Shown here piece after piece: positions 11,656 through 28,709 of a stretch of 64,000 bases of DNA (the first letter of the stretch is position 1; every line of letters begins with the position of its first letter). The DNA is from Dictyoglomus sp. NZ13-RE01. Lineage in GTDB: Bacteria > Dictyoglomota > Dictyoglomia > Dictyoglomales > Dictyoglomaceae. The stretch lies in NCBI GenBank assembly GCA_002878375.1, contig NIRF01000004.1, positions 1-64,000 on the forward strand, read 5' to 3'. Position numbers and translations under genes: made by a program. The notes beneath the pieces were generated by a model. That model saw only the letters and a program-made list of their open reading frames with translations. It was not told the DNA's origin and did no database searches.

Positions 11656-13446
11656 TTATTCTTTCTTAATAGCCTTAAAAGGACATACTTGGAAACAAAT
11701 TCCACACTTTGTACATTTTTCCTGATCAATCACATAAGTACCATCTTCATCTTTGAAAATTGCTCCTACTGGGCAATTTTTGAAACATATAGCACATTTT
11801 CTACATTGTTCCCTAATAACTTCATAATGAATTAATGCAGTACATACCTTAGCAGGACATTTCTTATCCCTAATATGAGCAATGTATTCATCTCTAAAAT
11901 ATTTTAAGGTAGTTAACACAGGATTCGGCGCTCCTTTTCCAAGTCCACACAAGGAAGTATTCCTCACAACCTTTGCAAGCTCTTCAAGTTCGTACAAGTC
12001 TTCTTCCTTTCCTTCACCTTTTGTTATTCTATCTAATATCTCTAACATTCTTTTTGTTCCAACCCTACATGGAATACATTTTCCACAGGATTCATCCTGG
12101 GTAAAGGTTAAGAAGAATTTTGCTACATCGACCATACAATTGTCTTCATCCATTACTATTAATCCACCAGACCCCATAATAGCACCAAGCGAAGTTATAG
12201 ATTCGTAGTCAACAGGCGTATCTAAATAATCAGCAGGAATACATCCACCTGCAGGACCTCCTATCTGAACAGCTTTGAACTTTTTCCCGCCAGGAATTCC
12301 TCCTCCAACATTATAAACTATTTCTCTTAAGGTTATACCCATTGGAACCTCTATTAAACCAGTCATATTAATTTTTCCTGCAAGAGCAAAAACTTTTGTC
12401 CCTTTGCTTTTTTCTGTTCCTAATGATGCAAACCAGTCTGCTCCTTTAAGAATTATAACAGGTATATTTGCCCATGTTTCCACATTATTAATCACAGTTG
12501 GTTTTCCCCAGAGTCCAGAATTTACTGGGAAGGGAGGTCTTGGACGTGGCATTCCTCTCTTACCTTCCACAGAAGCAATAAGGGCTGTTTCCTCACCACA
12601 TACAAAAGCTCCTGCTCCAATTCTTATTTCGATGTCAAAAGAAAAATCACTTCCTAATATGTTTTCTCCTAAGAGACCATAATTTCTTGCTTGCTCTATG
12701 GCTGAAGTCAATCTCTTTATTGCTAAAGGATATTCCGCTCTTATATATACATATCCCTTTTTGGCCCCAATAGCATAAGCACCAATAAGCATTCCTTCAA
12801 TTACAGAATGAGGATCTCCCTCCAAAATACTTCTATCCATGAAGGCTCCAGGATCCCCCTCATCCGCATTACAGATTATATACTTTTCATCTCCTTTTGC
12901 TTTTCTTCCGAGCTCCCACTTTAATCCTGTTGGAAAACCTGCTCCCCCTCTTCCCCTTAATCCAGATTTTTTTACCTCGGAAATAACTTCTTCTGGCGTC
13001 ATTTCTGTTAATACTTTAGCCAGAGCAGAATATCCATCTCTCGCAATATATTCTTCTATGTTTAAAGGATCAATAAAACCAACGTTTCTCAAAGCAATTC
13101 TTACCTGGTTTTTAAAGAAAGGAAGATCATTTATTGTTGGAAGAGGCTTCTTCAATTCTGGTTCCTTTACTAATAATCTTTCCACAACTCTTCCCTTTAG
13201 TAGATGTTCATTCACGATCTCTTTTGCATCTTGAGGTTTTAAATGGATATAAAAGGTACCTTCTGGATAAATTACCATAACAGGTCCCAAATCACATGTA
13301 CCAAAACATCCTGTTTCTATAATCTTTACCTCTTCGTAGATGCCAGCTTCCTTTAACTCCCTTTCTAAAGCGGACTTAAAGCTTTCTTCACCTGCAGATA
13401 TACATGCTGCTCCAGCGCATATTAGAATGTGCGCCCTCTCTGCCAT
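11656..13446 (-). CDS. hydB: NuoF/HydB-type flavoprotein subunit of an NAD-dependent hydrogenase or related oxidoreductase
   Basis: Cytoplasmic NAD(H)-binding FMN/iron-sulfur subunit, 596 residues. An N-terminal thioredoxin-like [2Fe-2S] domain has C10, C15, C47 and C51. The NuoF core follows, with GRGGAGFPTGLKW and the NADEGDPGAFMDR segment. The 4Fe-4S motif ESCGKCIPCR plus SLCGLG comes next, then two ferredoxin clusters (CRKCAICFKNCP, CTKCGICFQVCP). This fusion is typical of HydB in electron-bifurcating [FeFe] hydrogenases and of related NADP-reducing or formate dehydrogenase complexes. It is the last gene of the operon. No catalytic HydA follows; a terminator does. The symbol is given by resemblance to the Thermotoga arrangement. 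Confidence 0.88.
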   Translation of the reverse strand: MAERAHILICAGAACISAGEESFKSALERELKEAGIYEEVKIIETGCFGTCDLGPVMVIYPEGTFYIHLKPQDAKEIVNEHLLKGRVVERLLVKEPELKKPLPTINDLPFFKNQVRIALRNVGFIDPLNIEEYIARDGYSALAKVLTEMTPEEVISEVKKSGLRGRGGAGFPTGLKWELGRKAKGDEKYIICNADEGDPGAFMDRSILEGDPHSVIEGMLIGAYAIGAKKGYVYIRAEYPLAIKRLTSAIEQARNYGLLGENILGSDFSFDIEIRIGAGAFVCGEETALIASVEGKRGMPRPRPPFPVNSGLWGKPTVINNVETWANIPVIILKGADWFASLGTEKSKGTKVFALAGKINMTGLIEVPMGITLREIVYNVGGGIPGGKKFKAVQIGGPAGGCIPADYLDTPVDYESITSLGAIMGSGGLIVMDEDNCMVDVAKFFLTFTQDESCGKCIPCRVGTKRMLEILDRITKGEGKEEDLYELEELAKVVRNTSLCGLGKGAPNPVLTTLKYFRDEYIAHIRDKKCPAKVCTALIHYEVIREQCRKCAICFKNCPVGAIFKDEDGTYVIDQEKCTKCGICFQVCPFKAIKKE

Positions 13447-13491: not shown

Positions 13492-13860
13492 TTACTCTGT
13501 TGATAAAACATCCTCTGTAACGATCTGTCCATTAATTACATGTTGAGCAATAATTTTTCTTGCCTTCTCAGGAGTTACATGCTTATATAAAACTTTTGGA
13601 CCTCCAACTTTTTGAACAGATATTAAAGGTTCATATTCACAGAGACCAATACATCCAGCCTGAGTTACTACAACATTTTGCAAATTTCTCTTTTCAATCT
13701 CATCTAAAATAGCTAAAAGAGTCTCGCGCGCACCTGCTGCTATCCCACAAGTACCCATGTGAACTACTATTTTATCCTTTCCCTCAGGAGAGCGAGCTTG
13801 AAGATCGCTTTGGGCTTTCTCTTTAATCTTCTTCAATTCTTCTAAAGTTAACTTTTTCAT
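13492..13860 (-). CDS. Thioredoxin-like [2Fe-2S] ferredoxin-domain protein
   Basis: A 122-residue protein placed between the GHKL ATPase and hydB, as in the Thermotoga maritima hydrogenase cluster. It has the thioredoxin-like ferredoxin fold pattern (MGTCGIAAGARE, then QAGCIGLCEYEP). Only three cysteines stand at ligand positions (C38, C70, C74). H34 occupies the place of the first cysteine of NuoE (C85 in the neighbouring HydC). The cluster may have a His or other ligand, or may be absent. Probably an electron carrier or assembly/regulatory partner. Overlaps the upstream gene by four bases. Confidence 0.82.
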   Translation of the reverse strand: MKKLTLEELKKIKEKAQSDLQARSPEGKDKIVVHMGTCGIAAGARETLLAILDEIEKRNLQNVVVTQAGCIGLCEYEPLISVQKVGGPKVLYKHVTPEKARKIIAQHVINGQIVTEDVLSTE

Positions 13861-14396
13861 ATCCCTATACCTCCTAAATTTTGATTTAGATATGATTTTA
13901 TAAATCTAATAACTTCAGGATCAAAAAATGAATTATCTCCCCCTAACTTACTCTTAATATCCTCAGTAGATATCTCAAAAGACCCTTTTTCTGTTTTAAT
14001 TTTAAAATTAAAATTAATCTCAGGATGGGTAACAATTAAAGCATAAATTGTATCAGCCAAATTTCCCCATGGGGGTAGATCTATATGATTAGAAGGAAAC
14101 TCAGAGATTAACTCAGTTCCCTCTCCTACTTTCGACTTTATATTGAGTTTTCCACCACAATTTGTAATTACCTCATTAAATAGAGAAATTCCTAAGCCAA
14201 CCTTTCTTGTTCTCCTTGTTGTAGTAAAGGGATTAGTTATATCCCTTAATACGTCCTCAGGTATTCCTTTTCCATCATCTACTATTCTTAGCACAGTTTT
14301 TTCTTTATTTTTATTTATTTCTATAAATATATTTTTTGCCCCCGCCTCAATAGAATTTTCTATAAGATCTAAAAGATGCAAAGATAATTCTTTCAT
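13857..14396 (-). CDS. GHKL (histidine-kinase-like) ATPase domain protein
   Basis: A 179-residue protein made largely of a HATPase_c fold. It has N box LIENSIEAGAKN, G1 DDGKGIPED, and G2 VGLGISLF followed by GGKLNIKSKVGEGTELI. There is no histidine phospho-acceptor domain, so it resembles anti-sigma kinases or stand-alone ATPases. An equivalent gene lies between hydC and the small [2Fe-2S] gene in Thermotoga. Role is unknown, probably regulation or maturation of the complex. It overlaps both neighbours by four bases. Confidence 0.8.
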   Translation of the reverse strand: MKELSLHLLDLIENSIEAGAKNIFIEINKNKEKTVLRIVDDGKGIPEDVLRDITNPFTTTRRTRKVGLGISLFNEVITNCGGKLNIKSKVGEGTELISEFPSNHIDLPPWGNLADTIYALIVTHPEINFNFKIKTEKGSFEISTEDIKSKLGGDNSFFDPEVIRFIKSYLNQNLGGIGI

Positions 14397-14881
14397 GGAT
14401 TCTCTTTTCTAAAATCCTCTAACAATTTCTTTACCTTATTGGGAGTTAATCTTCCATAAACCTCATCATCAATCATCAAAGCAGGTGCCATACTACATGC
14501 CCCAATACATCTAACTAAGTCCAAAGAATAATATCCATCTTCAGTAACTTTACCCTCTTTTAATCCCATCTGTTCTAAAGCAGTTAGTAAATCTGCAGCA
14601 CCTTTCACATAACATGCAGTTCCCATACAAAGCCTTATTACATGTTTACCTTGAGGTTCTAATCTAAAGAAGGAGTAAAAGGTAACAACACCGTAAATCT
14701 CGCTCAATGGAATCCTCATTCTATTTGATACCATTTCTAACGCCTCTTTGGGCAAATATCCAAATTTTTCTTGAATAGCATGTAAAATCATAATTAAAGT
14801 TCCAGATGACCCAGCATACTTATCTAATATCTTCTCTACCTCGTTCTGAGCATATTCTGAAAATTTTAATTGTGCTTTCAT
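14393..14881 (-). CDS. hydC: NuoE/HydC-type [2Fe-2S] subunit
   Basis: A 162-residue subunit that passes electrons to or from the HydB flavoprotein. It has an N-terminal helical bundle, a YGVVTFYSFF motif, then a thioredoxin-like [2Fe-2S] domain with all four ligands C85, C90, C125 and C129 (CMGTAC and CIGAC). Length is normal for NuoE/HydC. It sits one base after the PHP gene and overlaps the next gene by four bases, in an operon that ends with hydB. Confidence 0.87.
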   Translation of the reverse strand: MKAQLKFSEYAQNEVEKILDKYAGSSGTLIMILHAIQEKFGYLPKEALEMVSNRMRIPLSEIYGVVTFYSFFRLEPQGKHVIRLCMGTACYVKGAADLLTALEQMGLKEGKVTEDGYYSLDLVRCIGACSMAPALMIDDEVYGRLTPNKVKKLLEDFRKENP

Positions 14882-14882
14882 C

Positions 14883-15620
14883 TTACACCTCCAATTGATA
14901 CTTTATATTTTTACATTTTAATGCTTTTACAAAATCTTTCCAAGAGAAATCTTCCATACCTAAAAAAGTTTTAGGTTTTATCATATCCTCTAAATAATGA
15001 GCATCCGAAGAAATGATTACAGGTTTATTTTTTATATTATACATGTTTGAAAACTTATTAAGATCACAATTTTTTGACAATTCCAAAACATCAAAATTTA
15101 AATCATCTGGTATAAATCCCAGGTTAGAAATTACACTATACATGGGCTTATCAATATGAGCAAGAACAGCTAACCCCTCATACTTTTTAATTAATTCAGT
15201 TACTTCTTTTAAAGATAGAGATGTAGATGTAAGTAATAATCTTTCCTCAATTCTTTCAACCTCATCTTTTTCATTAATAACTACTTGTAAGCCAAACAAG
15301 TCCTCGTTATTTTTCATAATTGGCAAATATCTCCATATAACTTTCTGAAATTCTAAGGCAGTCTCATAATTTTCAAATAATCCCACAACATGTACTTCTT
15401 CCCTGCTTTGAATCTCCATGCCAGGTATTACAATAACATCCATCTTATCTCCCCAATATTTAACAGCAGGATAATTCTCTACCATATGGTGATCTGTTAT
15501 GGCTAATATCTCAACTCCTAACATTTTTGCCCTTTTTACTATATTTTTTGAAGACATTTCAAAATCTCCACAAGGAGAAAGTACTGTATGAACATGTAAA
15601 TCAATACCATACCATCTCAA
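14883..15620 (-). CDS. PHP-domain metal-dependent phosphoesterase
   Basis: A 245-residue PHP-fold protein. Metal ligands are visible in GIDLHVHTVLSPCGD near the N-terminus, ITDHH, IPGMEI, LAHID and the late SSDAHYLED. The family hydrolyses phosphate esters, for example 3',5'-nucleoside bisphosphates. It is embedded in the hydrogenase-type operon and overlaps the upstream DRTGG gene by four bases. Such PHP genes are also found in related hydrogenase clusters, so a link to nucleotide signalling is possible but unproven. Confidence 0.82.
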   Translation of the reverse strand: MRWYGIDLHVHTVLSPCGDFEMSSKNIVKRAKMLGVEILAITDHHMVENYPAVKYWGDKMDVIVIPGMEIQSREEVHVVGLFENYETALEFQKVIWRYLPIMKNNEDLFGLQVVINEKDEVERIEERLLLTSTSLSLKEVTELIKKYEGLAVLAHIDKPMYSVISNLGFIPDDLNFDVLELSKNCDLNKFSNMYNIKNKPVIISSDAHYLEDMIKPKTFLGMEDFSWKDFVKALKCKNIKYQLEV

Positions 15621-16000
15621 GAGTTTGTCCCTTCTCCCTTTATTCTAACTGCCCCTTCTATACCATTTTTATATAGAATTCCACTTACAACAAAAACAAT
15701 GTGTTTTGTTCTAACTAATACGATATTTTTCTCCTTTGCCAGATTAATAGTTTCTTCTGGAACAATCTTTCCTCTTGCTACAATAACCATGGGAATATCC
15801 AGCATTTCCGCAGTTCTAATGATTTGAGGATTAGTTATTCCTGTGATAAGAACTACATCCTTATTCTTACACTCTACAAGAGATAATACGTCACTCATTA
15901 AATCTGCAGAAAAGCCTCTTTTTATATCTATCTCGTCTAATAGATGCTCACCAGCCAAAACTTCCCCATTAATAAGGGCTACAATTTCTCTTGCCTTCAT
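15617..16000 (-). CDS. DRTGG-domain protein (second of three)
   Basis: A 127-residue stand-alone DRTGG domain, the domain that also lies between the two halves of some phosphotransacetylases. It begins MKAREIVALINGEVLAGEH and has the ADLMSDVLSL, LITGITNPQIIRTAEMLDI and VRTKH segments shared with the protein at 18526-18888. DRTGG domains are thought to sense small ligands; the ligand here is unknown. Seven bases after the preceding gene in the operon. Confidence 0.82.
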   Translation of the reverse strand: MKAREIVALINGEVLAGEHLLDEIDIKRGFSADLMSDVLSLVECKNKDVVLITGITNPQIIRTAEMLDIPMVIVARGKIVPEETINLAKEKNIVLVRTKHIVFVVSGILYKNGIEGAVRIKGEGTNS

Positions 16001-16007
16001 ATTTTTA

Positions 16008-16358
16008 TTATATTTTTCTTTCCTCCCCTTTCACTCCTAACTTGTATAATTCTCCAACTATTTCAAAAGCAGATTTTGGGGATGAATATAAATTTATGCC
16101 CTCCTCTTTAGCTTTATTAATTGTTTCCTCTCCAGGCTCTTGCCCAGAAACAAAAATAATACTTTTTATTCCTGTTAAAACTGCAACAGCCACAGTATTT
16201 AGATGAGTCTGAACAGTCACCCATACCGATTCTTCTACGGCATGAGCCATAACAAAAGAAAGAAGATCACAACAAATACCATACTTAATATCCTCATCTC
16301 CCTTTGGTTCAACAATAACTTTTAATGATAAAATATTAGCAATCTCTCTACTCTTCAT
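16008..16358 (-). CDS. Divergent DRTGG-domain protein (third of three)
   Basis: A 116-residue paralogue of the two other DRTGG proteins in this operon. It keeps the MKSREIANILSLKVI start and the CCDLLSFVMAH core, but has VQTHLN in place of the usual TG-x-T-x-PQ loop and SSPKSAFEIVGELY in place of the RTKH end. The changed loop suggests altered or lost ligand binding. It overlaps the hydrogenase-like gene by 11 bases. Confidence 0.75.
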   Translation of the reverse strand: MKSREIANILSLKVIVEPKGDEDIKYGICCDLLSFVMAHAVEESVWVTVQTHLNTVAVAVLTGIKSIIFVSGQEPGEETINKAKEEGINLYSSPKSAFEIVGELYKLGVKGEERKI

Positions 16359-17670
16359 CTCTCTCTTCCTTTCTTTTTGGAATTATAGAGACTGATCTTC
16401 GAGATATTTCCTCCATCTCTTTTGCCATCTCTCTCAATTTTTCCTTTAATACAAAAATACAATCATATATTTGAGCATTACCTCTTACAATATCCTCCGC
16501 CAAGGCGGAACATGTAGGAGAACCACAAGAACCACAGTCAAGACCAGGTAGGATTTTTAAAATCTCTCGCATTTCCTCCATCTTTTTTAGTGCCTTTCCC
16601 ATATCCTCATCCAATTTCCATATAGGTCTCGGTAAAATTGCCTTATTCAGTAACATATCTGAGATACTTATTAAATTATCCAGTTTCTTTAATAACTCTT
16701 TATCCTCTTTAGTAGTTTTTATATGGTACATCAATCTTTTTTTAGCCACATATTTATCCTCTGGATTCAATACCCCACCTATACAACCTTCCCTACACGC
16801 TCGCAACTCAAGAAATTTTATATCTTGAAATTTATTTCTTTCTAAGTCCTCCAATACTTTTACTACCTCATCCATTCCCCCCACAGATATTGCGGATTCC
16901 TCAGGCAAAAACGAACTTTCACCGCCTAATCCACCCCAAAGTAATCCTGGAGAATAAACATAGGATTCCTCTTTTTCATCTGTTATATTTCTTTTTATAT
17001 TGATAAAAACATTATCTATGCCTAATACAGAACTAAAAACAGATTCTCTTCCATCCAAAGGTTCTTTTATATTGGTCACTTGAGCAGGACAAGGAGCTAA
17101 ATAAACCAAATTTATACTTTCTTCAGGATGACTCTTTTTCCAAAGCTTTTTTACTATTTCTCCCATTATCTCAAAGGGCGGTCTAAAGGGGGACAAATGA
17201 GGAATAAGAGTTGGAAACTTAACCTGAATTAGCTCTACAACAGCAGGACAATAAGTAGATATTAATGGGAGATTAGAAGTTGTAGATATGTATTGCTCTA
17301 AAGCCTGCTGTAAAAAATATATAGCTATAGTAGTATCCCAAACCTCCTTCGCGGAGAAAGTCCTTTGGACTCCTTTCTTTATCTGACCTAAGGTGTAACT
17401 TGTGGGGAATTGTGCATAAAACTCTGGAGGAAAAATTACTATTATATTTTCCAAAGAGGCAATACTTTCTAAAGTCTGAGTAAAAGCAAAAGGAGCATGA
17501 TAAGGACACACCCTAATGCATTCTCCACAATCTATACAACGATGGGAAAGAATTAAAGCTTTCCCATTTCTTACCCTCATTGCCTCTGTAGGACAATGCC
17601 TTATACAATGGATGCATCCCCTACATCTTTGCAGATTTATAGCTACTGAATGAAATAACTTTTCATTCAT
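16348..17670 (-). CDS. [FeFe]-hydrogenase-like iron-sulfur protein, sensory type without PAS domain
   Basis: A 440-residue cytoplasmic protein. Two ferredoxin clusters use C16/19/22/26 and C45/48/51/55. A hydrogenase large-subunit-like domain follows. The four cysteines that hold the H-cluster cubane are kept: C141 in STYCPAVV, C194 in APCPAQV, and C291 and C295 in RACREGCIGG. The proton-transfer cysteine of the TSCCP motif is Tyr140, and the MPCxxK lysine is missing. A CGSCGSPTC four-cysteine FeS domain and a charged helical tail end the protein, before where the PAS domain of HydS-type sensors would start. It is therefore more likely a redox or H2 sensor, or an electron relay, than a catalyst. 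Confidence 0.8.
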   Translation of the reverse strand: MNEKLFHSVAINLQRCRGCIHCIRHCPTEAMRVRNGKALILSHRCIDCGECIRVCPYHAPFAFTQTLESIASLENIIVIFPPEFYAQFPTSYTLGQIKKGVQRTFSAKEVWDTTIAIYFLQQALEQYISTTSNLPLISTYCPAVVELIQVKFPTLIPHLSPFRPPFEIMGEIVKKLWKKSHPEESINLVYLAPCPAQVTNIKEPLDGRESVFSSVLGIDNVFINIKRNITDEKEESYVYSPGLLWGGLGGESSFLPEESAISVGGMDEVVKVLEDLERNKFQDIKFLELRACREGCIGGVLNPEDKYVAKKRLMYHIKTTKEDKELLKKLDNLISISDMLLNKAILPRPIWKLDEDMGKALKKMEEMREILKILPGLDCGSCGSPTCSALAEDIVRGNAQIYDCIFVLKEKLREMAKEMEEISRRSVSIIPKRKEERDEE

Positions 17671-18529
17671 TTTTTCTTATATACACTCGTGAAATTAATT
17701 TAGTCCCCTTTCCTACCTGGGACTCTATTTTCAAATCATCAGAACAATTTTTAATATTTGGAAGTCCCATTCCAGCCCCAAATCCCATTTCTCTAATATT
17801 ATCTGGAGCTGTAGAGTATCCAGGTTGCATGGCAAGCTCAATATCAGGAATTCCAGGCCCCTCATCTTCCGCTATTATCTCAATAACTTCAGGAGAAAGA
17901 AAGACCCTTAACACACCTCTATAAGCATGAATAACTATGTTCATTTCTGCTTCATAAGTAATAATTGCAACTCTCCTAATTATTGCAGGATCAACCCCTA
18001 ACTGCTGTAATGCTTTTTTAACAGCGGAAGAAGCCATACCGGCAGATGAGAAGTCTCCTCCCAAGACTGGATATTCCAAAACTAATGGCTCTATTTCTGA
18101 TTTTTTCTCAATCTTAATTTCTTTTTCTTCTACATCCAACAGTTTAATAACAATATCCCTTGTACTTAATATTCCTATTGGTTCTCCATTATCATTTATC
18201 ACAGGAAACCTTCCAAATCTATATTGTCTAAAAAGACATAATGCAGTATATAAATTATCATCAGGTTTTAAATATTTCGGATCCTTTACCATATATTTTG
18301 AACATGGTGCATTTAAATCTCCATTTACTAATGCAGAAATAACATTCTCTACAGTAACTAAACCTATCATCTTCCCAATATCATTCACTACAGGTAGACC
18401 ATCAATTCTTTTAATCCTCATAATCTCTTGAATTGATCTCATATCATGGTAAGATGTAACTTTAACAATATCAGTATTCATTATTTCTTTTACCTTAATT
18501 GACTCAAAAAATTCTTTTGGAATTCTCAA
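17663..18529 (-). CDS. CBS-pair protein fused to an anti-sigma-type GHKL ATPase
   Basis: A 288-residue protein. Two CBS domains (about 14-130: VKEIMNTDIVKVTSYHDMRS and CSKYMVKDPKYLKPDDNLY) usually bind adenine nucleotides. They are followed by an RsbW/SpoIIAB-like ATPase domain with N box EAEMNIVIHAY, G1 DEGPGIPD and G2 GFGAGMGLPN. The layout suggests energy- or nucleotide-dependent switching of a partner, possibly the hydrogenase-like protein whose gene overlaps it by eight bases. Such fusions recur next to DRTGG genes in hydrogenase clusters of anaerobes. Confidence 0.85.
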   Translation of the reverse strand: MRIPKEFFESIKVKEIMNTDIVKVTSYHDMRSIQEIMRIKRIDGLPVVNDIGKMIGLVTVENVISALVNGDLNAPCSKYMVKDPKYLKPDDNLYTALCLFRQYRFGRFPVINDNGEPIGILSTRDIVIKLLDVEEKEIKIEKKSEIEPLVLEYPVLGGDFSSAGMASSAVKKALQQLGVDPAIIRRVAIITYEAEMNIVIHAYRGVLRVFLSPEVIEIIAEDEGPGIPDIELAMQPGYSTAPDNIREMGFGAGMGLPNIKNCSDDLKIESQVGKGTKLISRVYIRKNE

Positions 18530-18888
18530 AGAACCCCTTCAACCTTCCTTCCCTTTAATCCTGCATTATATAACTTCCCACAAGCCTCATACATGGGATA
18601 CTTTGTTCTAAGAAGAGGAATATTTAATTTTCTTGCAAGCTCTATAGTTTCTTGAGGTGGCATTTTTCCCCTTACAAATACAATTGCAGACAGATCGAGC
18701 ATTTCTGCTGTCCTAATAACCTGAGGCGTAACAAGACCAGTAAGAAGAAGAGCTCCACCCTCCCCTAATAATGCAAGAGCATCACTCATTAGATCTGCTG
18801 CACCAGCAATCTTTATCTCCCGATCTAATTCGTTTTCCCCCACAAGAACTTCTGCCTCAAGAATATCTTTTACTTCTCTCAGTTTCAT
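18526..18888 (-). CDS. DRTGG-domain protein (first of three)
   Basis: A 120-residue stand-alone DRTGG domain and first gene of the ten-gene operon. Core segments: MKLREVKDILEAEVLVGEN, GAADLMSDALAL, LLTGLVTPQVIRTAEMLDL and LLRTKYPMYEACGKLYNAGLKG. It overlaps the CBS/ATPase gene by four bases. It is closest to the protein at 15617-16000. Ligand unknown. Confidence 0.82.
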   Translation of the reverse strand: MKLREVKDILEAEVLVGENELDREIKIAGAADLMSDALALLGEGGALLLTGLVTPQVIRTAEMLDLSAIVFVRGKMPPQETIELARKLNIPLLRTKYPMYEACGKLYNAGLKGRKVEGVL

Positions 18889-25364: not shown

Positions 25365-28300
25365 CTATTCCCTCATTAGTTTTTGAAGGTCACTATATAA
25401 AGAACTTAAAACTTCCTGGTAATCTTTTTCTCCCTTTTCTACAATCTCCATCAATTTTTCTAAATCTCTTGTGGTTTCTTCAACGATATAATCTCTATAT
25501 TTATTCTTTAAAAAAGTGTATACTTTTCTCCCGAGCTGAGTTGATCTAATCCTTTTATAGGAGTCCTCTATAATATAACCCCTCTTAAATAATATGTCTA
25601 TGATTTTCGAGTAAGTAGATGGTCTACCAATCTCCTTATTTCTCATTTCCTCAATTATAGAAGCTTGAGTATATAAAGGAACTGTATGTTTCTTATAAGT
25701 CCTCCTTTCGAATTCATATAATCCATCAGAAAAAGGAGCATATACTGAAATTGGATAGAAAATGTTCCAACCATCCTCTTTAATATCAAAGATCAACTCA
25801 CTTATTATTTCTCTTCCATCAGTTTTTATAAGTATCTTCTGTTTTCTTACTATTGGATTTCTCATTTGACTTACTAAAAATCTATTAAATATTAACTTGT
25901 AAATGTTTAGATGTTTTTTAGTTATTTCCTGGGCTATTTTTTCACTAATAAAATCTGCCAGTTCTCTTTCATTTATTGGTTTTACCGGTCTTATTGCCTC
26001 ATGAGCACCTTCGCTCTCCCAACTTCTCCCTACAAAAAGGTCTGTTCTCCCAACTTTTTCCAAATAATTTTTTGCAACAAATTGTCCTGTTACAGAAATA
26101 CGTGTTGAATCCGTTCTATGATAGGTTATTAGTCCATACTCAAATAGATCCTGCAAAATATCCATAACTTCTTGCACACTATAACCATATCTACGGGAAC
26201 TTTCCGAGAGAATTGAGGATGTAGTAAATGGTGGAAGAGGGGACAATGTCTCTTCTAAAGTATCTAAAATCTTCACTTCCGCCTTATCTTCATGAATATT
26301 GCCTTCTATCTCTAAAGAGAAATTATTACCAAATTTAATTTGGGTAAACTCTTTCTCACTCTTTAAATACTCTGCCTCTCTTTCTATTATCCAACCAAGG
26401 ACAGTACTTTGCACTCTTCCAGCAGAAAGATTATATGAATTGAAGTTTTTTTGTAACTTCCCGCTTAATTCAAATCCAATCCATCTATCCTCTATTCGTC
26501 TAACCACCTGTGATTTAACCAAACTTTCTGAAACATATCTCTCCTCTTTCCGAGCAGACTCAAAACCGTGTCTTGTAATTTCATGCATCTCTATTCTTTT
26601 AATATTTCTATTAACAGGTAAAATATATTGGAAAACATCCCAAGAAATTTTTTCTCCTTCCACATCAGGATCAGTCGCAACTAATATCTCATCCACTTCT
26701 AATGCTAACTCTCTTAATGTTTTAAGAATTTCCTTTTTGTCATCTATATTATTAGAATTACATTTAGGACAATTTTCCTCCTCATCAGTGAATTGATAGC
26801 CACAAGACAAACACCTCTTAATTGAGTTATATCTGGGGATAAACTTATCATCTAAGACTTCAACCCCATATACACCATTTTTTGTTTCCAAATCGTAAAC
26901 ATGCCCTTTAGTAGCCGTTACTAACAAAATACTATTTGGTGTTAATGATTCGTGAACCAAAAGTTTTCCATACCTTCTTGTATCTGCCTTTTCTAAAAAT
27001 TTTGATATAGTATCCGCCTTTGTTGGGGATTCTACAATCATAAGAATTGACTTCACATTATCAATTGTAGGCTCCCCTCTCAAAACTCTACTTTCTTCTA
27101 CCTCTTCTATTAGTTTACTCCAATCAATTTCTTCTTCAGAAACCCAATCTTCTTCAGTTAAAAACATTAATCTGGAGCGCAAAGATTCAAAAACAATATC
27201 ATCATCCTCAAAGAGGATTGAAATACCTCTTGTTAATCTACCCTCAAGCATTCTTGAGGTTCTTCCTGACGCCTGTATATAGGTATAGACGTCTGGAACA
27301 ACCATTTCCTTATTTTCAAATTTTATATTTGGAAATAACTCTTTTAAGTATTTATCCCATTCTTCTGAGGATATAAACTTACGTACAGACTCCCTCAAAC
27401 TCTCTATAGGAATATTACTTAAATTAGATATGAATCTACTCATCTTTTGATTATCTTCAAGTTTTTCTCTTAAAACTCTCTCTATAACAAACCTTGGAGC
27501 CTTATCTATATCAGTAGAGAAACGGAAGCATGGAGTACCCCAAAAAACTGCATACTTTATCCTCGTAGGTAGATCTATACCTCTCACTAACTTACCATAA
27601 TAGGTATAAATACCACATAAAACATCCAATTCTCCGCTTTTAAACCTCTCAAAAGAGTCCATAAAATTATCCCATGACTTTCCAACCCTAATACCATTTT
27701 CCAATAAGTAATCTACTAATTTTTCCCCTTCTTCCTCATTTTCAACAAACAATAAAACACCATCTTTTAGTAATCTTATAATTTCCAATAATCTTTCCTT
27801 ACTCTTTTTATTTACTCTAACATTTACAATATTTCTAATGCTTAGAACAAATCTTCCAATTTCGAATCCTAATAGTTCTCTAAATAAAAGAGGTCTAATG
27901 CCTCGGGGTTTTGCAGTTGCCGATGAAACAATCAATATTCCATGATTTTCTATTCTATTATTGTTTAAAGTTCCAAACTTTCTAAGTTTAATATTTGTAA
28001 GAGCTTCATTTATTAACTCCTTTGGAATACCTATCATCTCTAACAAAGTATCAATATTTTTTGATGATTTTAATACAGCATCCACATCGTCTACAAAAAC
28101 CAAATCAAATTTCTTAGAGGAAAATATATCTCTCCTTCTTGATATAAATTGTGAGGAAATAATTAAGATATCAAAATTGTCCTCTAAAAAGTCCTTTTCG
28201 AATTTTTCCTTATCCTTAGAATTCATAGAAGAGTGATAAGATAAGATTTTAATATTATCCTTGGGCTCTCCTTCAGAATACTTCCTTAGCCTTTCTTCTG

Positions 28301-28709
28301 CCTGTTTTACTAAAGAAACTGTAGGGAAAATTAAAGCTACTTTTTTATTATTCCTTGCAAACCATAAAGCAGATATAAGTCCAAAGGTTGTTTTTCCAAT
28401 ACCTGTTGGAGCAACCATAGTAAAACTCTTTGATAGTAGTAATCGCTTTGCCCAAAACCTTTGATAGCCTGTTAAAGGTTTTCCGAATTTTTTCTCAAAA
28501 AATTTGAGAAATTCTTCGTATTGGGAGTAAAAATTAGAATAGAAAAGATAATCCTTTAAAGTATTAAATTTTTCTAAGTCATGAAGCAAGTTATCTGTGC
28601 CCTCTGTAGGTAAACACTTCTCACAGGGAAGTCCTTTCTCATTCCTGTGGTCAGTATTAATATCACCACAATTAACACATGAATGATAATATTTAGCTCC
28701 AATTGCCAT
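25365..28709 (-). CDS. rgy: Reverse gyrase
   Basis: ATP-dependent introduction of positive supercoils into DNA, the marker of hyperthermophiles and extreme thermophiles. The 1114 residues hold an N-terminal zinc finger (CVNCGD ... CEKC), a helicase-like domain with Walker A APTGIGKTTFG and DDVD, and a SGRTSRML motif. The second half is topoisomerase I. It has TOPRIM MIVESPTKADTI and ATDPDVEGEKI, a zinc finger CLSCGYQF ... CPKC inside the TOPRIM region, and the catalytic Tyr in LITYHRTDSTRIS. All key residues are present, so it is likely active. It follows hsp20 by 62 bases, most of which is a terminator, and it heads KaiC, HTH, ahcY and gpsA. Confidence 0.96.
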   Translation of the reverse strand: MAIGAKYYHSCVNCGDINTDHRNEKGLPCEKCLPTEGTDNLLHDLEKFNTLKDYLFYSNFYSQYEEFLKFFEKKFGKPLTGYQRFWAKRLLLSKSFTMVAPTGIGKTTFGLISALWFARNNKKVALIFPTVSLVKQAEERLRKYSEGEPKDNIKILSYHSSMNSKDKEKFEKDFLEDNFDILIISSQFISRRRDIFSSKKFDLVFVDDVDAVLKSSKNIDTLLEMIGIPKELINEALTNIKLRKFGTLNNNRIENHGILIVSSATAKPRGIRPLLFRELLGFEIGRFVLSIRNIVNVRVNKKSKERLLEIIRLLKDGVLLFVENEEEGEKLVDYLLENGIRVGKSWDNFMDSFERFKSGELDVLCGIYTYYGKLVRGIDLPTRIKYAVFWGTPCFRFSTDIDKAPRFVIERVLREKLEDNQKMSRFISNLSNIPIESLRESVRKFISSEEWDKYLKELFPNIKFENKEMVVPDVYTYIQASGRTSRMLEGRLTRGISILFEDDDIVFESLRSRLMFLTEEDWVSEEEIDWSKLIEEVEESRVLRGEPTIDNVKSILMIVESPTKADTISKFLEKADTRRYGKLLVHESLTPNSILLVTATKGHVYDLETKNGVYGVEVLDDKFIPRYNSIKRCLSCGYQFTDEEENCPKCNSNNIDDKKEILKTLRELALEVDEILVATDPDVEGEKISWDVFQYILPVNRNIKRIEMHEITRHGFESARKEERYVSESLVKSQVVRRIEDRWIGFELSGKLQKNFNSYNLSAGRVQSTVLGWIIEREAEYLKSEKEFTQIKFGNNFSLEIEGNIHEDKAEVKILDTLEETLSPLPPFTTSSILSESSRRYGYSVQEVMDILQDLFEYGLITYHRTDSTRISVTGQFVAKNYLEKVGRTDLFVGRSWESEGAHEAIRPVKPINERELADFISEKIAQEITKKHLNIYKLIFNRFLVSQMRNPIVRKQKILIKTDGREIISELIFDIKEDGWNIFYPISVYAPFSDGLYEFERRTYKKHTVPLYTQASIIEEMRNKEIGRPSTYSKIIDILFKRGYIIEDSYKRIRSTQLGRKVYTFLKNKYRDYIVEETTRDLEKLMEIVEKGEKDYQEVLSSLYSDLQKLMRE

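Follow-up and report, generated by a model that had tools for sequence, protein, structure and literature searches.

Group D (M2e) [FeFe]-hydrogenases have no PAS domain and no Cys299, carry an extra C-terminal Cx2Cx4Cx16C cluster, and are often encoded beside group A hydrogenase genes (PMC8163306). One of them, TamHydS of Thermoanaerobacter mathranii (PMC8163306, PMC10407848, PMC13104023), has Ala at position 299 and Ser at position 353, is active after loading with a synthetic [2Fe] subsite, and is encoded with a histidine-kinase-like ATPase gene adjoining and bifurcating hydrogenase genes nearby. The group D proton path has been named as E252-E289-S249-D265 (PMC10407848). The group C HydS of Thermotoga maritima, also a putative sensory H-domain protein with a changed second sphere and a C-terminal Fe-S cluster, has a PAS domain and Gly at position 353 (PMC10055695). 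Among bifurcating [NiFe]-hydrogenases, NiFe-HydABCSL of Acetomicrobium mobile (7t2r) is encoded in one operon, and the parts of the report cited here describe no FeFe-derived sensor for that operon (PMC8880783).

The window, by which we mean the whole 64,000-nucleotide stretch of Dictyoglomus DNA analysed, encodes a group D-like protein, HydS-D, within an operon that also carries HydB and HydC, putative subunits of a bifurcating hydrogenase (Table 1). On balance, we think it probable that a bifurcating [NiFe]-hydrogenase has this group D relative, which probably lacks the diiron site, as its Fe-S redox sensor. In this variant the sensor is uncoupled from FeFe catalysis, and one may ask if a diiron site is required for its role. 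A prior report of it was not found in the open-access literature, a scope too narrow to prove novelty.

Table 1 Genes of the HydS-D operon, and one further open-reading frame, in the window
Feature	Position	Strand	Length, matches and remarks
DRTGG-domain protein, first operon gene	18526..18888	minus	PF07085 8.5e-9; 4-nt overlap
Two CBS domains + SpoIIAB-like HATPase	17663..18529	minus	Pfam CBS 1.7e-26, HATPase_c_2 4.3e-9; overlaps HydS-D by 8 nt
HydS-D, group D-like [FeFe]-hydrogenase-related protein	16348..17670	minus	440 aa, no internal stop
Small DRTGG-like protein	16008..16358	minus	No Pfam match; resembles the DRTGG proteins encoded at group D loci; 11-nt overlap with HydS-D
Third DRTGG-like protein, extra copy in Dictyoglomaceae	15617..16000	minus	Hpr_kinase_N 1.9e-5 and DRTGG 3e-4, below cut-off
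PHP-domain protein	14883..15620	minus	PF02811 2.1e-8
HydC/BfuC (NuoE-like [2Fe-2S])	14393..14881	minus	PF01257 1.8e-50; PDB matches NfnC, HydC, 7t2r_C
GHKL ATPase	13857..14396	minus	PF02518 6e-17
Thioredoxin-like [2Fe-2S] protein	13492..13860	minus	PF01257; 88-93% identical across Dictyoglomaceae
HydB/BfuB (FMN/NADH module, C-terminal 2x[4Fe-4S])	11656..13446	minus	Closest solved relative NiFe-HydABCSL subunit B; no HydA after
Open-reading frame resembling reverse gyrase	25365..28709		1114 aa; helicase + topoisomerase I

Architecture and class membership of HydS-D

A Pfam scan of HydS-D found N-terminal ferredoxin domains, Fe_hyd_lg_C (E=1.2e-23), and an FeS domain at residues 374-406 (E=1.1e-13), after which the protein ends; as the initial annotation had said, there is no PAS domain. 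Sixteen Fe-S cysteines make up two N-terminal [4Fe-4S] ferredoxin motifs (C16-C55), the four-cysteine cubane set of the H-domain, and a C-terminal Cx2Cx4Cx16C motif (C379-x2-C382-x4-C387-x16-C404), and this is the group D architecture, with the same domain order and three Fe-S modules as TamHydS. The cubane cysteines are C141, C194, C292, and C296; the first two had been correctly assigned before, while the other two had been placed one residue too low, at C291 and C295. The structure prediction that had been proposed as a check gave an AlphaFold model (49 sequences, pLDDT 92.9), and the PDB matches listed by Foldseek for it are [FeFe]-hydrogenase H-domain proteins. Alignment with the HydA of the same genome puts Tyr140, which directly precedes the invariant C141-P142, where the TSCCP motif has C299 (CpI numbering), in agreement with the earlier claim of a tyrosine at that cysteine, and the lysine of MPCxxK (the Lys358 equivalent) is indeed absent, being Gln197 in HydS-D and E, E, L, and L in four orthologues. 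Further pocket residues are Glu83 at S232 and Arg290 at M497.

Scanning genomes with the window protein and related sequences yielded 564 confirmed relatives, from which 80 group D loci were retained for counts. All of these loci have the four cubane cysteines; at position 299, 73 of them have Ala and 3 have Tyr, and the Lys358 equivalent is a lysine in 77 and an arginine in the remaining 3. Given these counts and the published description of the group (PMC8163306), a protein without PAS and without Cys299 is ordinary for group D. The relatedness to HydS proposed in the initial annotation therefore stands, and the oddity that it attached to the missing PAS domain and cysteine does not, as TamHydS lacks both (PMC8163306); what that view left out is that Lys358, kept in group D, is lost here, that HydE, HydF, and HydG went undetected in the family, and that HydB and HydC look to be of the NiFe type.

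Judged by its sequence, HydS-D belongs, as a diverged member, to the group D (M2e) family of sensory [FeFe]-hydrogenases. In a tree of group D-type sequences that left out TamHydS itself and HydDB, it is nested among the group on its own long branch, its placement with locus L067 being unsure, and the Dictyoglomaceae stem measures 2.0 changes per column vs a median of 0.23 for end branches. Tyr299 and Arg497 also occur together in a separate clade made up of L056, L057, and L121; a single shared origin of the two residues is unsupported, as the Dictyoglomaceae stand apart from that clade (long branches, placement unsure). The M353 position is Ala in three of the five Dictyoglomaceae orthologues and Thr in two, and Ser/Thr in 76 and Ala in 4 of the 80 loci.

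The window genome also has a separate group C HydS, beside HydABC (L005:13310-14944). This copy belongs to a cluster, found with its orthologues, of canonical HydABC, group C HydS with a PAS-like tail, and a Rex-like gene (G000:C2, L005:7178-14944). A PP2C (SpoIIE-like) phosphatase gene adjoins the group C HydS (L005:12184-13332), while the neighbour of HydS-D is a SpoIIAB-like kinase gene.

Active-site pocket and maturation genes

All five Dictyoglomaceae orthologues (G000-G004) have Tyr299, Glu at S232, and Arg at M497, and all five keep the 16 Fe-S cysteines. At the Lys358 equivalent they have Q, E, E, L, and L, vs K or R in 80 of 80 group D loci, and among the 81 positions that are at least 95% conserved across those loci, 11 are changed in all five, Lys358 included. 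Along the group D proton path, E251/E252 and E288/E289 are kept, S249 is replaced by Leu, and D265 by Gly; S249 is also variable among the 80 loci. Lys358 is kept in the HydA of the same family (6 of 6) and in the aligned group C HydS copies. Purifying selection on HydS-D is indicated by dN/dS values of 0.074 (G001) and 0.077, and these values, the tyrosine found in five of five orthologues, and the conservation of the 16 cysteines together indicate that Tyr140 is not a chance substitution. What is new in the five orthologues includes the loss of the CN-anchoring lysine together with two of the four proton-path residues. TamHydS, in comparison, has none of Tyr299, Gln197 in place of Lys358, Glu83 at S232, Arg290 at M497, or the loss of S249 and D265.

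Such losses, together with the accelerated stem branch, could also be those of a decaying pseudo-sensor, functionless and retained by its position in the operon alone. We regard this as highly improbable, given the low dN/dS (0.074-0.077), the 16 cysteines kept in five genomes, and the retention of HydS-D in G001, a 99% complete genome that keeps the operon and has neither HydA nor a group C HydS.

Profile searches for HydE (TIGR03956), HydG (TIGR03955), and HydF (TIGR03918) gave no match over cut-off in any of the seven Dictyoglomaceae genomes, two of them single-contig, and the T. maritima positive control was over cut-off in each search. The HydF tetramer domain PF18133, present in 8 of 41 genomes examined, was likewise not found in the seven. 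The HydF matches that did appear in the family cover the GTPase domain only, and the one HydG-like match inspected, at L122, proved to be ThiH-like and to have a ThiG-like gene beside it. HydA is nevertheless kept in six of the seven genomes and is canonical where its motifs can be read, and published work puts the hydrogenase genes of D. turgidum where the NiFe and HydABC clusters of the family sit (PMC5167688). Because the family HydA is fully canonical, an H-cluster may still arise by other means; if a Dictyoglomaceae HydA or HydS does carry one, an assembly route other than HydEFG would follow. The combination of a canonical HydA and no detected maturase, in a family of which some members are in culture, makes it testable whether an H-cluster can form without HydEFG. 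Over lineages, a link between a non-lysine residue at position 358 and missing HydF was only suggestive and not significant (Fisher p=0.073), and L121 has Arg at this position, yet HydF is present. Separately, another genome (G019) without matches to HydE or HydF has a canonical HydA, on a small contig (C41, L141) that may be a contaminant.

The replacement residues around the site (Tyr, Gln, Glu, and Arg) do not amount to proof that the diiron subsite is gone, and TamHydS is functional with no Cys299. HydS-D could instead be an ordinary group D H2 sensor that obtains its diiron subsite via unknown or undetected maturases and senses H2 in the way proposed for TamHydS, with Gln/Glu/Leu and Tyr299 acting only in tuning. 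The activity of TamHydS without Cys299 (PMC8163306), the retained E251/E252 and E288/E289, and the canonical HydA in six of seven genomes, which would be odd if diiron assembly were absent, speak for such a sensor; we still consider it unlikely, as none of the five orthologues has the lysine or arginine that all 80 other group D loci keep, S249 and D265 are lost, HydE, HydF, and HydG went undetected, and the stem branch is long. The loss of Lys358, the undetected maturases, and the apparently NiFe-type HydB and HydC described below make an ordinary H2-sensing H-cluster in HydS-D doubtful, and the first two argue against its binding a complete H-cluster and turning over H2. We infer that the diiron site has probably been lost. 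Such a state, with cysteines kept and the diiron site gone, would have a parallel in the H-domain relatives Nar1/IOP1, eukaryotic Fe-S assembly factors of unrelated function that kept their Fe-S cysteines and lost the diiron site.

Operon organization and candidate signalling partners

The operon runs in the order DRTGG, CBS and SpoIIAB-like ATPase, HydS-D, two DRTGG-like genes, PHP, HydC, GHKL, [2Fe-2S] protein, and HydB; its first genes overlap one another by 4, 8, and 11 nt. The ATPase upstream of HydS-D matches the NCBIfam model spIIAB at 1.3e-16, below the model cut-off. In 76 of the 80 group D loci, the closest upstream gene of HydS-D that could be recognised encodes a SpoIIAB-like ATPase, within 300 nt in 72 and farther in 4, and in 2 more of the 80 it is fused in frame to the HydS-D N terminus (L084:7539-9362 and L087:3941-5755). 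In L057, DRTGG is fused to HydS-D. The ATPase is thus a likely output partner of HydS-D. The initial annotation had proposed a CBS-GHKL protein as partner in trans, and the adjacency and the fusions support the ATPase part of that idea; the CBS part is particular to the Dictyoglomaceae, where all five copies are CBS-fused and 287-290 aa long, compared with about 145 aa in most others. For group D "sensors", which have had no demonstrated signal path, the neighbouring ATPase, the two ATPase fusions, and the one DRTGG fusion name candidate partners. Classic partner switching (a SpoIIAB-like kinase, a STAS protein, and a PP2C phosphatase) does not apply in its simple form, as STAS was not found in the seven Dictyoglomaceae genomes.

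The hydrogenase probably associated with HydS-D

In contrast to the loci of TamHydS and most other group D proteins, the HydS-D operon has no FeFe HydA. HydA never follows HydB in the five Dictyoglomaceae operons, whereas other group D loci with a readable A subunit after HydB have an FeFe HydA in 46 of 48 cases. Elsewhere in the window genome, contig C13 carries a homologue of the HydA N-terminal part (560 aa) with NiFe small and large subunits, HydD, and Hyp genes. No HydB or HydC was found beside this A-S-L cluster within the region read, nor beside its counterparts in G001, G002, and G003. In the window genome the NiFe A-S-L and HydB/HydC genes form two complementary sets, which lie on different contigs, a point against their pairing. 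The best solved match of the window HydB, and of the A and L subunits on C13, is the NiFe-HydABCSL of A. mobile (PMC8880783; 7t2r), whose genes form a single operon; in the Dictyoglomaceae they are split.

The window HydB scores 957 bits against NiFe 7t2r_B vs 880 against FeFe 7q4v_B, and that of G003 scores 956 vs 892. As controls, two FeFe-linked group D HydBs prefer 7q4v_B (1015 vs 908 and 947 vs 935 bits), and the canonical HydB of the window genome prefers the T. maritima FeFe subunit 7p5h_B; the HydC comparison does not discriminate NiFe from FeFe. The window-type HydB is 91-92% identical across two genera of Dictyoglomaceae. These comparisons suggest that HydB and HydC pair with the NiFe A-S-L subunits. 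A third HydB/HydC-like pair on C2 (L177:467-2772), in which HydB is without the C-terminal 2x[4Fe-4S] and seemingly without the N-terminal [2Fe-2S] cysteines, is a possible competitor for this pairing.

Both gene sets occur in one operon in a distant bacterium, on the contig of L057 (L220), where the run is HydC, ATPase, HydS-D, PHP, GHKL, HydC, [2Fe-2S] protein, HydB, then NiFe A, S, L, and HydD. There, HydS-D has Tyr299 and Arg358, the NiFe S and L subunits are 53% and 61% identical, HydC is present twice, and the 1020-aa HydB is a fusion with an NfnB-like part. No HydF was detected in this genome, a MAG that may be incomplete.

With HydA missing after HydB in five operons, HydS-D itself might take its place as an electron-relay third subunit of a HydB/HydC complex rather than act as a sensor, and its ferredoxin clusters and the conservation of HydB at 91-92% would suit that role. 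This is improbable: HydS-D coexists with a normal third subunit elsewhere, FeFe HydA following HydB at 46 of the 48 group D loci outside the family that have a readable gene there, it is without the N-terminal extension of HydA, and the NiFe A subunit can take the HydA place.

In the reading that we favour, HydS-D would keep the ferredoxin clusters of its N terminus, its H-domain cubane site, and the Fe-S cluster at its C terminus, with the CO/CN diiron subsite probably absent, and would report, via four [4Fe-4S] clusters, the electron load on a bifurcating [NiFe]-hydrogenase made up of A-S-L encoded elsewhere in the genome and B-C from its own operon. The signal would pass to the translationally coupled CBS/SpoIIAB-like ATPase and the DRTGG proteins, which may tune the expression or activity of the complex. 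That HydS-D is a former H2-sensing [FeFe]-hydrogenase that gave up its diiron site and became a pure Fe-S redox sensor controlling the bifurcating [NiFe]-hydrogenase, in a family without HydE, HydF, and HydG, is plausible and is offered tentatively.

Elsewhere in the window, the open-reading frame that resembles reverse gyrase (Table 1) fits a thermophile.
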